Origin: Candidatus Aquidulcis sp.
GTDB lineage: Bacteria > Chloroflexota > Anaerolineae > UBA4142
Reading direction: 5' to 3'
NCBI GenBank assembly: GCA_020723345.1
Contig: DYJA01000033.1
Span: forward strand, 1 to 49,549
Length of the DNA stretch: 49,549 bases
Shown one piece after another: positions 17,549 to 46,798 of the stretch; positions within the stretch are counted from its first letter, which is position 1; every line of letters starts with the position of its first letter. Both the position numbers and the translations under genes were made by a program. The notes under the pieces are model-generated. The model was not told where the DNA came from. It worked only from the letters and a program-made list of their open reading frames with translations, and made no database searches.

Positions 17549-18323
17549 TTTTGAAATCGCCTACGACGATACCGGCGGCAGTCAACCGCCCTTGCTTTTC
17601 ATCCACGGCTTTCCGCTCGACCGGACGTACTGGACGGGGCAGACGCGCGCACTGCGCGATGTCGCGCGCGTGCTCGCGCCGGACTTGCGCGGCTTTGGCG
17701 AATCGCGCTTGCCGACCGGCGCGGTGACGATGGAGACGTACGCGGACGATCTGCGCGATTTGCTCGACGCGCTCGACATTCAGCGCGCGGTCGTCGCCGG
17801 ACTTTCGATGGGCGGGTACATCGCGTTCGCGTTCTATCGCAAGTACGCGGCGCGCGTGCGCGCGTTGATTCTCGCGGACACGCGCGCGACGCCGGACACG
17901 CCGGAGGCGAAAAAGGGACGCGACGAAAATATCGCGCTCGCCCGCGCGCAAGGCACCGCTGCCGTCGCGGAAAAAATGTTTCCCAAAATGCTGATGCCGC
18001 AGACCATCGCAGAGCGCGCCGACATCGCGGACGCGACGCGCGCGCTGATGTCGCGCCAACCGGTCGAAGGCGTCATCGCCGCGTTGGGCGCGCTGCGCGA
18101 CCGCCCGGATTCCACGCCGACGCTCGCGCAGATCGCGGTGCCGACGCTGATCGTCGTCGGCGCGGAAGACGCGTTGGCGCCGCCAAAAGATTCGGAGCAG
18201 ATGCGCGATGAGATTCGCGGTGCGCGCCTCGCGGTGATTCCGAACGCCGGACACCTGTCCAACTTGGAACAACCCGATGCGTTCAATCAAATCGTGCGCG
18301 ATTTTTTGCAGTCGTTGTCGTAG
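17529..18323 (+). CDS. Alpha/beta-fold hydrolase
   Basis: 264 residues of the alpha/beta hydrolase superfamily. Motifs: the oxyanion segment LFIHGFPLDRTYW, the nucleophile elbow AGLSMGGYIAF (Ser), the acid-bearing VPTLIVVGAEDALAPP, and the catalytic His in IPNAGHLSNLEQPDAF. The substrate could be an ester, lactone or similar; the family does not decide. The gene begins inside clpA (20-nt overlap), with GGAG 6 nt before ATG 17529, so it is co-transcribed with the protease genes. Its TAG stop belongs to the GTAGGGGCG palindrome that follows. Confidence 0.88.
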
Positions 18324-18376
18324 GGGCGAAGCATTTTCCCGTTGGCGCGCCAACGGGAAAAATGCTTCGCCCCTAC
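18320..18376. repeat. GTAGGGGCGAAGCATTTT palindrome
   Basis: 57-nt almost perfect palindrome (one unpaired A) centred on CCAACGG-type arms around CGCG. TAG at 18321-18323 is the stop codon of the preceding hydrolase. A copy containing another repeat lies inside a glycosyltransferase gene at 37542-37614. Confidence 0.85.
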
Positions 18377-33032: not shown

Positions 33033-33111
33033 CATTGTCATTTCGAGCGGAGCGAGAAATCTCCGTGCTGCCAATCGAGATTTCTCGCAAAGATCGCTCG
33101 AAATGACAATG
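33033..33111. repeat. CATTGTCATTTCGAGCG dispersed repeat
   Basis: 79-nt element with perfect 17-bp inverted ends and internal GAGAAATCTC / GAGATTTCTC words. A relative lies at 41845-41924. Confidence 0.85.
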
Positions 33112-34870: not shown

Positions 34871-34901
34871 TGTCCTGAGCAGAACGAAGTGTAGTCGAAG
34901 G
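34871..34901. repeat. GTCCTGAGC...TCGAAGGA repeat in front of a glycosyltransferase gene
   Basis: TGTCCTGAGCAGAACGAAG followed by TGTAGTCGAAGGA. Its GAAGGA end acts as the nearest purine-rich site and runs into the ATG at 34902. Relatives: 37564-37592 and 37888-37919, in opposite orientation. Confidence 0.75.
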
Positions 34902-35855
34902 ATGGACATTTCAATCATCGTCGTCAGTTGGAATGTGCGCGATCTGCTGCGGCAATGCCTGTATTCAGTATTCAGTATTCAGTATTCAGATGTCAAGTCA
35001 CTGATTACTGAATACCGAAAACTGAACACTGAAGTCATCGTCGTCGACAACGCGTCATCCGATCACACTGTCGAAATGCTGCACGCCGAATTTCCAGACG
35101 TGCGCGTGATTGCGAATACTGAGAACGCGGGATTTAGCCGCGCGAATAACAAAGCCCTTGCGATCGCGCAGGGGCGTTATCTTTTTCTGCTCAACCCCGA
35201 CACCGAATTGCGCCCCGGTGCGCTGCAAACGCTGTACGATCACGCGGAAGCGCAGCCGCGTGTCGGCATCATCGGACCCCAACTTTTCTACGGCGATGAT
35301 TCGCTCCAATCGTCGCGGCGGCGCTTTCCCACGCTTGCCACCGCGTTTCTCGAAGCGACCAAGTTGCAGCAATGGTTTCCGCGCAATCGCGTGCTGACGC
35401 GCTATTACATGCTCGACACGCGCGACGACGCGACGCAAGAAGTAGATTGGATCAACGGCGCGGCGATGTTCGTGCGGCGCGCGGTGTACGATCAGATCGG
35501 CGGCTTGGACGAAGCGTTTTTCATGTACTCGGAAGAACTCGATTGGTGCTATCGCGCCAAGCGCGCGGGCTGGCAAATTGTTTATTTGCCGACCGCGCAG
35601 GTGACGCATTACGAAGGCAAATCGTCGGAGCAAGTGGTCGCGCAGCGCGACATTTATTTTCATTCGAGCAAGGTGCGCTTTTTTCGCAAGACGCGCGGCG
35701 CGTTCGTCGCGGAAATTTTGCGCGCGTTTTTGCTACTGATGTTTGTGTACCAAATCGCGGAAGAAGCGGCGAAGTGGGTGATGGGACACAAGCGCGAAAT
35801 GCGCGCGGCGCGGCTGAAGGCGTATTGGCATGTGGTGAAAAGCGGAATTGCATAA
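34902..35855 (+). CDS. Glycosyltransferase family 2 (rhamnosyltransferase-like)
   Basis: 317 residues. A GT-A fold transferase for cell-surface glycan assembly. DISIIVVSWNVRDLLRQCL, VIVVDNASSDHTVEML, AGFSRANNKALAIAQGRYLF, the DxD-like LLNPDTELRPGAL, VDWINGAAMFVRRAVYDQ and EELDWCYRAKRAGWQIVYLP identify the family. A C-terminal hydrophobic segment (ILRAFLLLMFVYQIA) may anchor it to the membrane. The segment between DLLRQCL and VIVVDN is lengthened and encoded by ATTCAGT-type repeat units, so residues such as FSIQYSDVKSLITEYRKLN come from a dispersed repeat. The start overlaps another repeat. GDP-deoxyhexose from Gmd/Rmd is a plausible donor. Confidence 0.88.
   Translation: MDISIIVVSWNVRDLLRQCLYSVFSIQYSDVKSLITEYRKLNTEVIVVDNASSDHTVEMLHAEFPDVRVIANTENAGFSRANNKALAIAQGRYLFLLNPDTELRPGALQTLYDHAEAQPRVGIIGPQLFYGDDSLQSSRRRFPTLATAFLEATKLQQWFPRNRVLTRYYMLDTRDDATQEVDWINGAAMFVRRAVYDQIGGLDEAFFMYSEELDWCYRAKRAGWQIVYLPTAQVTHYEGKSSEQVVAQRDIYFHSSKVRFFRKTRGAFVAEILRAFLLLMFVYQIAEEAAKWVMGHKREMRAARLKAYWHVVKSGIA
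34961..35033. repeat. TATTCAGT-type repeat inside the GT2 gene
   Basis: Four TATTCAG units, then ACTGAATACCG and AACTGAACACTGAAG: an imperfect hairpin like that at 30678-30740, lying wholly within an open coding frame. Confidence 0.8.
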
Positions 35856-35877: not shown

Positions 35878-36276
35878 GTGGCAAAGATGAACCGCTCACG
35901 AGATTGGCTCGCGCAGGCGTTGCGCGATCTGGAAAAAGCAAAAACCGATATCCAGTTCGAATACTGGGAATGGGCGTGCTTTACCACACAGCAGGCAGCC
36001 GAAAAAGCGGTCAAAGCACTGCACATGGCGCGCGGCGCGGACGCGTGGGGGCACGCGATTACGCCGATGCTGCGCGCGCTGAAAGATTTGAATGTTCCGC
36101 CGCGTTTGATCGAGCAAGCCCAACTCCTGGATACATTTTACATTCCAACGCGTTATCCCAACGGTTTTCCCGAAGGCAAGCCCGCGGATTATTTCAACGC
36201 GCCGAAAGCGCAAGAGGCGTTCGATGCCGCCAGTGCGATCATTCGATTCTGTCAAGATCATCTCGCTCGACCGTGA
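35878..36276 (+). CDS. HEPN domain protein (partner of the adjacent MNT)
   Basis: 132 residues, almost all HEPN domain: WLAQALRDLEKAKTDIQFEY, WACFTTQQAAEKAVKALHM, a candidate catalytic R-x6-H (RGADAWGH), and FYIPTRYPNGFPEGKPADYF. In HEPN/MNT toxin-antitoxin pairs the HEPN protein is the RNase toxin. It overlaps the MNT gene by 53 nt, the usual order for such pairs. The start is GTG 35878 or ATG 35887; neither has a clear ribosome binding site. The YIPTRYPNG tail is the same as in the fused protein at 28531. Confidence 0.85.
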   Translation: MAKMNRSRDWLAQALRDLEKAKTDIQFEYWEWACFTTQQAAEKAVKALHMARGADAWGHAITPMLRALKDLNVPPRLIEQAQLLDTFYIPTRYPNGFPEGKPADYFNAPKAQEAFDAASAIIRFCQDHLARP

Positions 36277-36586
36277 CGCATTGCTGGCGCGTTTGCGCGC
36301 GATTGCCGCGCGGATTCGGCAGGAGCAGCAGGAGGTCGAAGAGATTCGCGCGTTCGGTTCGCTCGCGCGCGGTGACGCGACGGGCATCAGCGACGCGGAC
36401 GTGTTGATCCTGTTGCGCGAGTCCTCCGAATCCGATCCCTTGCAGCGTATTCGCGCGTTTCTGCGGTACTTCGATCTGGAGCGCGGCGTCGATCTCTTGG
36501 TGTACACCCGCGCAGAGTTTGAACAACAACTCGCTTTGCAAAATCGATTCCTGCAAAACATTTGGCGAGAAAGTATTTCACTCTGA
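36224..36586 (+). CDS. MNT-type minimal nucleotidyltransferase (antitoxin-like)
   Basis: 120 residues. The nucleotidyltransferase motif is RAFGSLARGDATGISDADVL (G-S-x-x-RG then D-x-D), followed by RGVDLLVYTRAEFEQQL, which holds the third acidic residue. MNT proteins adenylylate the HEPN partner. The start ATG 36224 lies within the HEPN gene; a later start near codon 10 (VKII) cannot be excluded. Ends 4 nt before the glycosyltransferase gene, so it may be co-transcribed with it. Confidence 0.85.
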   Translation: MPPVRSFDSVKIISLDRDALLARLRAIAARIRQEQQEVEEIRAFGSLARGDATGISDADVLILLRESSESDPLQRIRAFLRYFDLERGVDLLVYTRAEFEQQLALQNRFLQNIWRESISL

Positions 36587-36590
36587 TTCT

Positions 36591-37820
36591 ATGCGCGTCC
36601 TCTTCCTCACCGGCGAATTTCCTCCCATGCAAGGCGGCGTCGGCGATTGCACGCACGAGATCGCGCGCGGACTCGCCGCGCGCGGCGCGGATGTGCGCGT
36701 ACTAACATCTACAAAGGCTGACACGCATCACGCATCACGCATCACGGTTCTGCCCATCGTCAAAAACTGGGATTGGGCAAATCTCCGCGTCATCGCGCGC
36801 GTCATCCGCGATTTCGCGCCGGACATCGCGCACATTCAGTACCAAACCGGCGCGTTTGCGATGCGCCCCGCGATTGATTTCGCGCCGCGTTGGCTCCATT
36901 TCCTCCCCTGTCTACGGGGGAGGGCTAGGGTGGGGGTCGTCACAACATTTCACGACTTGCGCGTGCCGTACCTTTTCCCCAAAGCCGGGCGCGTGCGCGA
37001 GTGGGTCACGCGCGAACTCGCGCGTTCATCCGACGCCGTCATCGCGACCAACGACGAAGATTACGCGCGCCTTTTGACTTGGAACTTGCGGCTAGCAACA
37101 TTGATCCCCATCGGCTCGAATATTCCAACAAACGAACCAGCCAACTATCAAACTGCGGCTTGGCGAAAACAACTTGGCGTTCGCGATGGCGAGATTTTGC
37201 TTTGCTACTTTGGTTTTCTCAACGAAAGCAAAGGCGGCGAAACGCTCATCCGCGCGCTCGCGCTCGTCCCAAACGCGAAACTGTTGATGATCGGCGGACA
37301 AGTCGGCGCGAGTGATCCAACCAACCTTGCGTATCTTTCCAAAGTCCAATCTCTAATCTCCAATCTCCAACTAACTGATCGCGTTCTTTGGACAGACTAT
37401 ACGCCACCGGAAATCGTCACCGCGAATTTCCGCGCGGCGGATCTGTGCGTCTTGCCGTACCGCGACGGCGCGTCGTATCGGCGCGGGACGCTGATGGCGG
37501 CGCTGGCGCACGGCTGCGCGCTTGTCACGACGATGCCGCGCGTAGGGGCGAAGCATTTGCCTCCTTCGACTGCGCTGCGCTCCGCTCAGGACGAGGCAAA
37601 TGCTTCGCCCTTACCGGCATTGCGCGACGGCGAAAACTGCTTGCTCGTTCCGCCGGACGACCCGCGCGCGCTCGCCGACGCGATTCAGCGCGCGGCGGCT
37701 TCGCCGGAACTGCGCGCAAAAATCGGCGCGGGCGCGCGCGAACTCGCGCAGCATTTTACCTGGGACAAGATCGCGCAGCAGCATTTGGAATTGTATCGGC
37801 GAATTGCGAATGGCGTATAG
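36591..37820 (+). CDS. Glycosyltransferase family 4 carrying several repeat-encoded insertions
   Basis: 409 residues. A GT-B fold transferase: MRVLFLTGEFPPMQGGVGD with the acceptor-side Gly loop, VVTTFHDLRVPYLFP, SDAVIATNDEDYARLL, CYFGFLNESKGGETLIRAL for the phosphate loop, FRAADLCVLPYRDGASYRRG with donor-binding residues, and LRDGENCLLVPPDDPRALAD. The frame is intact, but four segments are encoded by dispersed repeats: ADTHHASRIT, LPCLRGRARVG, QSLISNLQLT and the 24-residue block between TMPR and ALRDGEN. The last lies beside the donor site. The last codons and the stop lie in a GCGAATGGCGTAT tract. Whether the enzyme is active is untested. Confidence 0.85.
   Translation: MRVLFLTGEFPPMQGGVGDCTHEIARGLAARGADVRVLTSTKADTHHASRITVLPIVKNWDWANLRVIARVIRDFAPDIAHIQYQTGAFAMRPAIDFAPRWLHFLPCLRGRARVGVVTTFHDLRVPYLFPKAGRVREWVTRELARSSDAVIATNDEDYARLLTWNLRLATLIPIGSNIPTNEPANYQTAAWRKQLGVRDGEILLCYFGFLNESKGGETLIRALALVPNAKLLMIGGQVGASDPTNLAYLSKVQSLISNLQLTDRVLWTDYTPPEIVTANFRAADLCVLPYRDGASYRRGTLMAALAHGCALVTTMPRVGAKHLPPSTALRSAQDEANASPLPALRDGENCLLVPPDDPRALADAIQRAAASPELRAKIGAGARELAQHFTWDKIAQQHLELYRRIANGV
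36719..36748. repeat. CACGCATCACGCATCACG repeat inside the GT4 gene
   Basis: Three GCATCAC units in frame, encoding DTHHASRI. Same words as the repeats at 104-115, 837-848 and 46757-46798. Confidence 0.65.
36900..36940. repeat. CTCCCCTGTCTACGGGGGAG repeat inside the GT4 gene
   Basis: A stem of CTCCCC and GGGGAG followed by GGCTAGGGTGGGGGT, encoding LPCLRGRARVGV. Same class as 18518-18550. Confidence 0.7.
37347..37373. repeat. AATCTC-unit tract inside the GT4 gene
   Basis: CCAATCTCTAATCTCCAATC and following units encode QSLISNLQL. Same family as 2133-2172 and 3507-3541. Confidence 0.7.
37542..37614. repeat. Nested repeat inside the GT4 gene
   Basis: Outer palindrome GTAGGGGCGAAGCATTTGCC and GGCAAATGCTTCGCCCTTAC (family of 18320-18376) is split by an inner CTTCGACTGCGCTGCGCTCC...GCTCAGGAC (family of 34871-34901). 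The reading frame stays open through both. Confidence 0.85.
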
Positions 37821-37885: not shown

Positions 37886-37919
37886 CATCCTTCGACTCCA
37901 CTTCGTTCCGCTCAGGACG
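37886..37919. repeat. CCTTCGACTCC...CTCAGGAC repeat
   Basis: CATCCTTCGACTCCACTTCG and TTCCGCTCAGGAC, the intergenic version of the repeat nested in the GT4 gene. Confidence 0.75.
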
Positions 37920-43548: not shown

Positions 43549-43549
43549 A

Positions 43550-43586
43550 AAACATCGGGGCGTTCAATCGAACGCCCCGATGTTTT
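43550..43586. terminator. Bidirectional terminator between convergent genes
   Basis: 16-bp stem AAACATCGGGGCGTTC / GAACGCCCCGATGTTT with an AATC loop. T-runs follow on both strands, longer on the minus strand. Its core GGGGCGTTC palindrome is the family also found inside tatD. Confidence 0.85.
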
Positions 43587-44482: not shown

Positions 44483-44543
44483 AAGGCAGAAGGATGAAGG
44501 ATGAAAAATCTCTTTCATCCTTCATCCCTCATCCTTCTGCCTT
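44483..44543. repeat. AAGGCAGAAGGATGAAGG palindrome
   Basis: Left arm AAGGCAGAAGGATGAAGG and right arm ATCCTTCTGCCTT with one extra unit. The aminotransferase stop codon (TAA, 44542-44544) is at its right edge. Confidence 0.8.
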
Positions 44544-46756: not shown

Positions 46757-46798
46757 CGTGAAACGTGATGCGTGAACGGAACACGCATCACGTTTCAC
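46757..46798. repeat. GTGAAACGTGATGCGTG palindrome
   Basis: GTGAAACGTGATGCGTG pairs with CACGCATCACGTTTCAC around AACGGAA, perfect. The proline dehydrogenase stop codon (46795-46797) is part of it. Confidence 0.85.

Follow-up and report, generated by a model that had tools for sequence, protein, structure and literature searches.

Dispersed palindromes and tandem heptamers recur in the loops of a conserved GT4-family glycosyltransferase of Chloroflexota

Results

The window analysed here, a stretch of 49,549 nucleotides, belongs to contig C43 of G000, a draft genome of 6.34 Mb (132 contigs, 95.5% complete), and carries, at 36591–37820 on the forward strand, an open frame of 409 amino acids encoding a GT4-family glycosyltransferase with N- and C-terminal Pfam domains. 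PF13579, PF13439, PF00534 and PF13692 were all matched above their cut-offs, and an AlphaFold2 model of the protein (mean pLDDT 88.5) retrieved BshA, MshA and SPS in Foldseek searches with TM scores mostly between 0.7 and 0.8, so that both the domain content and the fold place the protein among the GT4 enzymes with a GT-B fold. It was matched in 40 of 40 relatives, with orthologs of 78–80% identity in the same genus and family; the named records among its close orthologs are Chloroflexota, mostly Anaerolineae, and come from metagenome assemblies. Comparison of the core of the protein with that of the congener G001 gave a dN of 0.098 and a dS of 0.63 (dN/dS ∼0.15). The core is under strong purifying selection and the gene is thus in use, or was so until recently.

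The textbook motif of GT4 enzymes is E-x7-E. The initial annotation had stated that all family motifs survive, which holds for the columns that are invariant among the orthologs, all of which are kept; the subfamily as a whole, however, departs from E-x7-E and reads DGASYRRGTLMAALAHG, with A303 invariant, as judged by eye from the orthologs. The second glutamate of the textbook motif is absent throughout the subfamily orthologs (residues 288–308), and its lack would, to judge from these sequences, be a trait of the subfamily rather than damage.

The gene order at this locus is a GT2 glycosyltransferase gene, a small HEPN/nucleotidyltransferase pair, the GT4 gene and ftsK. The GT2 gene (34902–35855, forward strand; PF00535) has a loop of the kind described below for the GT4 protein: a GTATTCA heptamer array was detected by TRF within the gene at 34959–34990 (+), the reading frame is uninterrupted, and the GT2 orthologs differ in this repeat-bearing loop. 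The pair in between (35878–36586), assigned by Pfam to a HEPN protein and an MNT-like nucleotidyltransferase, resembles a toxin–antitoxin system. Long inverted repeats of unrelated sequence are also present in the window at 33033–33111, 43549–43586, 44483–44543 and 46758–46798.

The initial annotation had described four repeats within the GT4 frame, and TRF and an inverted-repeat search located all of them there, in a frame that stays open. A GCATCAC array of ∼3.6 copies (36721–36747, +; 36722–36746 by TRF) is translated as DTHHASRITV in what is here called loop 1. In loop 2, a CTCCCC..GGGGAG hairpin at 36903–36922 (+), which together with GGGCTAGGGTGGGGGT forms a repeat reaching 36937, is translated within LPCLRGRARVG. 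A heptamer-like AATCTC/AATCTCC tract of 3.7 copies (37345–37370, +; TRF) is translated as VQSLISNLQ in a core helix. Loop 3 holds a composite palindromic element, GTAGGGGCG..CGCCCTTAC (37542–37614, +), translated as VGAKHLPPSTALRSAQDEANASPLP, whose arms of 22 nt are 95% complementary (DNA fold z = −6.1) and whose loop contains an inner repeat, CCTTCGACT..GCTCAGGACG, at 37563–37593 (+).

Each of these repeats was searched for in the source genome, with the reversed pattern as a control. The loop-1 array sequence GCATCACGCATCAC gave 117 matches against none for its reverse, AATCTCCAATCTCY gave 105 against one, the loop-2 repeat GGGGGAGGGCTAGGGTGGGGGT gave 30 against none when up to two mismatches were allowed, and the inner repeat 65 against none; the palindrome core GGGCGAAGCATT..AATGCTTCGCCC was found in 19 palindromes against none, and BLAST revealed ∼30 diverged full-length relatives of the loop-3 palindrome. 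All four repeats are therefore members of dispersed families and not products of chance. Among the papers searched, none dealing with these repeat sequences came to light.

In the ortholog alignment, two strands bound the loop that contains the GCATCAC tract (residues ∼45–52), a helix and a strand bound that of the CTCCCC tract (residues 104–113), and the palindrome occupies a loop that follows the strand 311–314 (residues 318–342); these three loops are the main length-variable internal sites of this GT4 family. The GCATCAC tract fills its variable loop with little net gain in length over near relatives, and the CTCCCC/GGGGAG repeat is a net insertion relative to the orthologs. Thus, of the four insertions proposed initially, three stand as insertions or loop fillings, but the AATCTC tract was not inserted, as it aligns without gaps inside the core helix 246–258 and is common to the congeners G002, where it is nearly identical, and G001, where it has a few changes, with traces in G012. 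The tract matches a heptamer of the dispersed type within a core helix without any change in length, and is a feature within the genus.

The suggestion that the inserts are tolerated as surface loops found good support in the variable loops of orthologs devoid of arrays, in strong purifying selection on the core, in the presence of different repeats in the corresponding loops of relatives and in the structural model that had been proposed as a check, in which pLDDT falls below 50 solely in the palindrome insert (residues 320–330). The same annotation had raised removal or bypass of the inserts. RNA splicing, ribosome bypass or protein splicing could be envisaged, and the strong hairpin, with an RNA fold of −55 kcal/mol for the loop-3 segment, is in line with such a process. 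However, the frame is open through every insert, so that neither removal nor bypass is needed, the inserts lie in tolerant loops and an Rfam search of the window gave no match; we regard this reading as exceedingly improbable and have rejected it.

Taken by itself, the sequence does fit the description of one repeat as nested in another; the composite, however, is itself dispersed throughout the genome as one element. The tip CTTCGACT..CTCAGGAC is present in 21 of the 37 clear palindromes collected from the source genome, and is also found there alone, outside palindromes. Composites that share these ends were seen beyond the genus, in G003, and beyond the family but within the order, in G019. 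As palindrome and inner repeat form a dispersed composite family, the nest belongs to the element and a second, local insertion event in the GT4 gene is ruled out. Within the window, copies of the tip repeat were seen at 34872–34900, just upstream of the GT2 gene, and at 37889–37919 (+), just downstream of the GT4 gene, and a second copy of the palindrome, lacking the inner repeat, at 18320–18376 (+), where the frame read through the copy contains a stop.

The palindromes of this genome, present in tens of copies or more, are dispersed and mostly intergenic, as are GTAG REPs. In the plain palindromes, the match of the variable stem to its own opposite arm was 0.826, compared with 0.554 (maximum 0.688) when arms were shuffled among copies; the stem is complementary within copies far more than between them and has hence been maintained through change. 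The composites gave 0.810 versus 0.788 and no clear complementary stem variation. A single palindrome arm, with an unpaired GTAG and a 7-bp stem, folds with a z of only −1.2, and in the whole element GTAG pairs with the other end. Palindromes with GCATTTGC arms that enclose unrelated DNA of ∼30 bp were observed in the same genome (C8:21829, C24:65382 and C116:25463; loci L121 and L122), looking as if two inverted REPs flanked arbitrary DNA.

Five genes of the source genome encode Y1_Tnp (PF01797) proteins, and those on contigs C106 and C70 are each bracketed by palindromes, for which chance was roughly estimated at 7e-4. The C70 gene additionally holds an in-frame palindrome, which splits it; its best NCBIfam match is REP_Tyr_transpos (NF047646), at 63.8 bits and so below the curated cut-off of 80 bits. 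The palindromes thus share the gene association of GTAG REPs, with genes that are RAYT-like only. At locus L087, which holds a RAYT-like gene (1706–2846) flanked by palindromes and with one in frame, a neighbouring TPR gene also contains an in-frame copy. RAYT-like Y1 transposases are the most likely agents of palindrome mobilization.

The GT4 gene is not special in its genome, as other genes carry similar repeat loads. In-frame palindromes were found in Pfam-supported genes for a CHAT protein, a trypsin-like protein and TPR proteins, and heptamer arrays in frame in a GH31 protein (two) and in a YfhO-type membrane protein (three, plus a tip repeat). In the sampled loci of the source genome, which are a biased set in that many were fetched for holding repeats, 12 of 22 heptamer arrays had a coding-looking frame on both sides, those of the GH31 and YfhO-type proteins among them. 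The YfhO-type protein (L099, 42–2999) also has a further repeat-like peptide, VIARSGATKQS...

Among 71 distinct GT4 orthologs, 23 heptamer arrays were detected in 15 genes, where codon shuffling predicts ∼0.1. Only the 56 orthologs free of arrays were used to place indel sites, which kept the arrays from defining sites of their own, and 19 of the 23 arrays lie at most five residues from such a site (22% expected) and 21 within six, with a nominal P of 1e-9 that ignores relatedness, the orthologs not being phylogenetically independent. The two arrays off the indel sites are the helix tracts of the source genome and of G002. Loop 1 has been occupied by at least seven different units, including GCATCAC, GGTCAGC, AATTCGT, AATTACC, AGTCTCC, CACCCGT and GCGACCT, and loop 2 by palindromes like that of the source genome in the orthologs at L026 and L029/L177. 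The contents of loop 3, which holds the composite palindrome in the source genome, differ between genera: G007 has a short GGGCGATTC palindrome and G013 a large C-rich one, and arrays are present in G001 and G002 (GGTCAGC), G003 (GTCGTCA) and G012 (AACAGTC).

Many projects have produced assemblies independently, and the fact that repeats of the same kinds occupy these loops in them makes an artefact across the whole family unlikely, even though the source genome is a draft in 132 contigs and repeats are assembly hazards. Taken together with an intact frame and a dN/dS of ∼0.15 relative to G001, it leaves very little room for the GT4 gene being a pseudogene or an assembly artefact, and the pseudogene reading was rejected. 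Reuse of the same sites could also arise if the repeats preferred them, through insertion guided by hairpins or microhomology, with tolerance being secondary; the short palindrome of G007, which has similar ends and an identical right border, would fit this. The sites nevertheless coincide with the indel sites of array-free orthologs and are shared by unrelated repeat types, and we consider a primary site preference quite improbable.

Arrays with a period of seven numbered 129 in 688 kb of fetched loci, as against 23 with period six and 17 with period eight, a period-7 excess of the STRR kind in loci that were partly chosen around repeats. The density of heptamer arrays is 0.275/kb in the coding DNA of GT4, against 0.097/kb in its flanks. 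In the G016 ortholog (L177, ∼1480–1700), loop 1 holds an array of ∼220 bp with CAGTCAT and CAGTCTC units, at which the reading frame of the first half of the gene differs from that of the second, which is compatible with a slippage state, a pseudogene or an assembly fault. The loop-1 arrays might accordingly be viewed as a contingency locus, in which slippage by 7 nt would switch the glycosyltransferase on and off and turnover would diversify the loop: the unit is not a multiple of three, the arrays lie near the N-terminus, different units are present in many lineages, the density exceeds that of the flanks, and the G016 frames change exactly at the array. On the other hand, this is one frame-shifted ortholog among those examined, for which pseudogenization or a collapsed repeat may account, and such arrays also occur in unrelated genes such as those for the GH31 and YfhO proteins; we therefore hold a contingency locus to be unlikely.

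Discussion

The reading that we think is probably correct is recurrent insertion of REP-like palindromes and heptamer arrays that survive only in tolerant loops and are translated as disordered peptide. The genome is strewn with two kinds of repeat, REP-like palindromes with the ends GTA(G/A)GGGCG..CGCCC(T/C)TAC and tandem heptamers of many unrelated units, which its relatives likewise carry to varying degrees. Such repeats land within genes as well as between them; in-frame copies in length-tolerant surface loops would be kept, presumably as neutral inserts, and translated as disordered peptide, and the remaining copies would be purged by selection. The GT4 gene would then represent three survivors in its three indel-prone loops. 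The composite palindrome with its tip probably spreads as a unit, most likely via the RAYT-like Y1 transposases whose genes it flanks, and slippage is the likeliest source of the heptamer arrays and of their turnover.

Recurrence in the same loops could also reflect an insertion preference or a benefit rather than tolerance alone, and the higher density of arrays in GT4 coding DNA than in the flanks is not predicted by pure removal from genes. The AATCTC tract, in which the sequence changed without a change in length, falls outside the insertion explanation. A broader proposal, which appears doubtful at present, would regard the heptamer arrays in the enzyme loops of Anaerolineae, in glycosyltransferases and others, as a distinct class of sites that serve contingency or diversify loops; a process seeding arrays with a fixed period of 7 nt and a free unit sequence would renew them at the same loops in many genera.

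What the family offers is a conserved bacterial enzyme that dispersed repeats enter repeatedly at the same loops, with unrelated repeat families in different genera and with orthologs as a control. Within a single enzyme family, it thereby provides a natural set of loop insertions whose origin is known and which could be used to study how protein segments arise from repeats and whether in-gene heptamer arrays switch or tune genes. It is also a warning for annotation, as many odd peptides of Chloroflexota proteins (THHASRIT, PSTALRSAQD and SAVSGQQSAV; compare STALRSAQDEANASP in the GT4 protein) are translated DNA repeats.

In-frame palindromic repeats are known from the RPEs of Rickettsia (PMC3767692) and from intragenic REPs of several phyla (PMC3733652). 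The association of REPs with RAYTs has been reviewed for GTAG REPs, intragenic ones included (Di Nocera et al., 2013; PMC3733652), and REP-type repeats can strike one ORF twice, or two species at an identical site (PMC3733652). The palindromes described here resemble GTAG REPs in being dispersed, with GTAG ends and a paired arrangement, in their largely intergenic location with only a minority of copies in frame, in flanking two RAYT-like genes and in their complementary stem changes. They differ in the full-length fold, where GTAG pairs with a CTAC at the opposite end, in their longer stems of 22 bp, in the many copies with a CTTCGACT..CTCAGGAC tip and in the RAYT match, which stays under the curated cut-off.

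The RPEs, which the initial annotation took as the nearest parallel, share with the present case in-frame palindromes in conserved proteins and orthologs that bear different groups at one site or close to it, a parallel by behaviour only. The accompanying claim that they come one family at a time is contradicted by orthologous genes that carry RPE groups 4, 6 and 7 at or near the same loci (PMC3767692). Unlike the GT4 gene, in which palindromes are combined with tandem heptamers, RPEs are elements of 100–150 bp and alphaproteobacterial.

Heptamer repeats are over-represented in bacteria and have been described as mainly intergenic (PMC4692102, PMC4679880). The STRRs of cyanobacteria, GGGAATC of Xanthomonas and Nostoc (PMC4692102) and TAACTGA of Beggiatoaceae (PMC4679880) likewise have a period of seven and form dispersed arrays of few copies. 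In contrast to their mainly intergenic location, many arrays of the source genome and its relatives, with differing units, are in frame in the loops of conserved enzymes.

Phase-variable simple repeats occur in glycosyltransferases of host-associated bacteria. As in those genes, the repeats of the GT4 gene are tandem and have a unit that is not divisible by three, but its arrays are short, and almost every ortholog keeps them in frame. What is new here in comparison with these systems is that palindromes and heptamers are combined in a single conserved enzyme, sharing a small set of loops in which they have been replaced repeatedly across genera.
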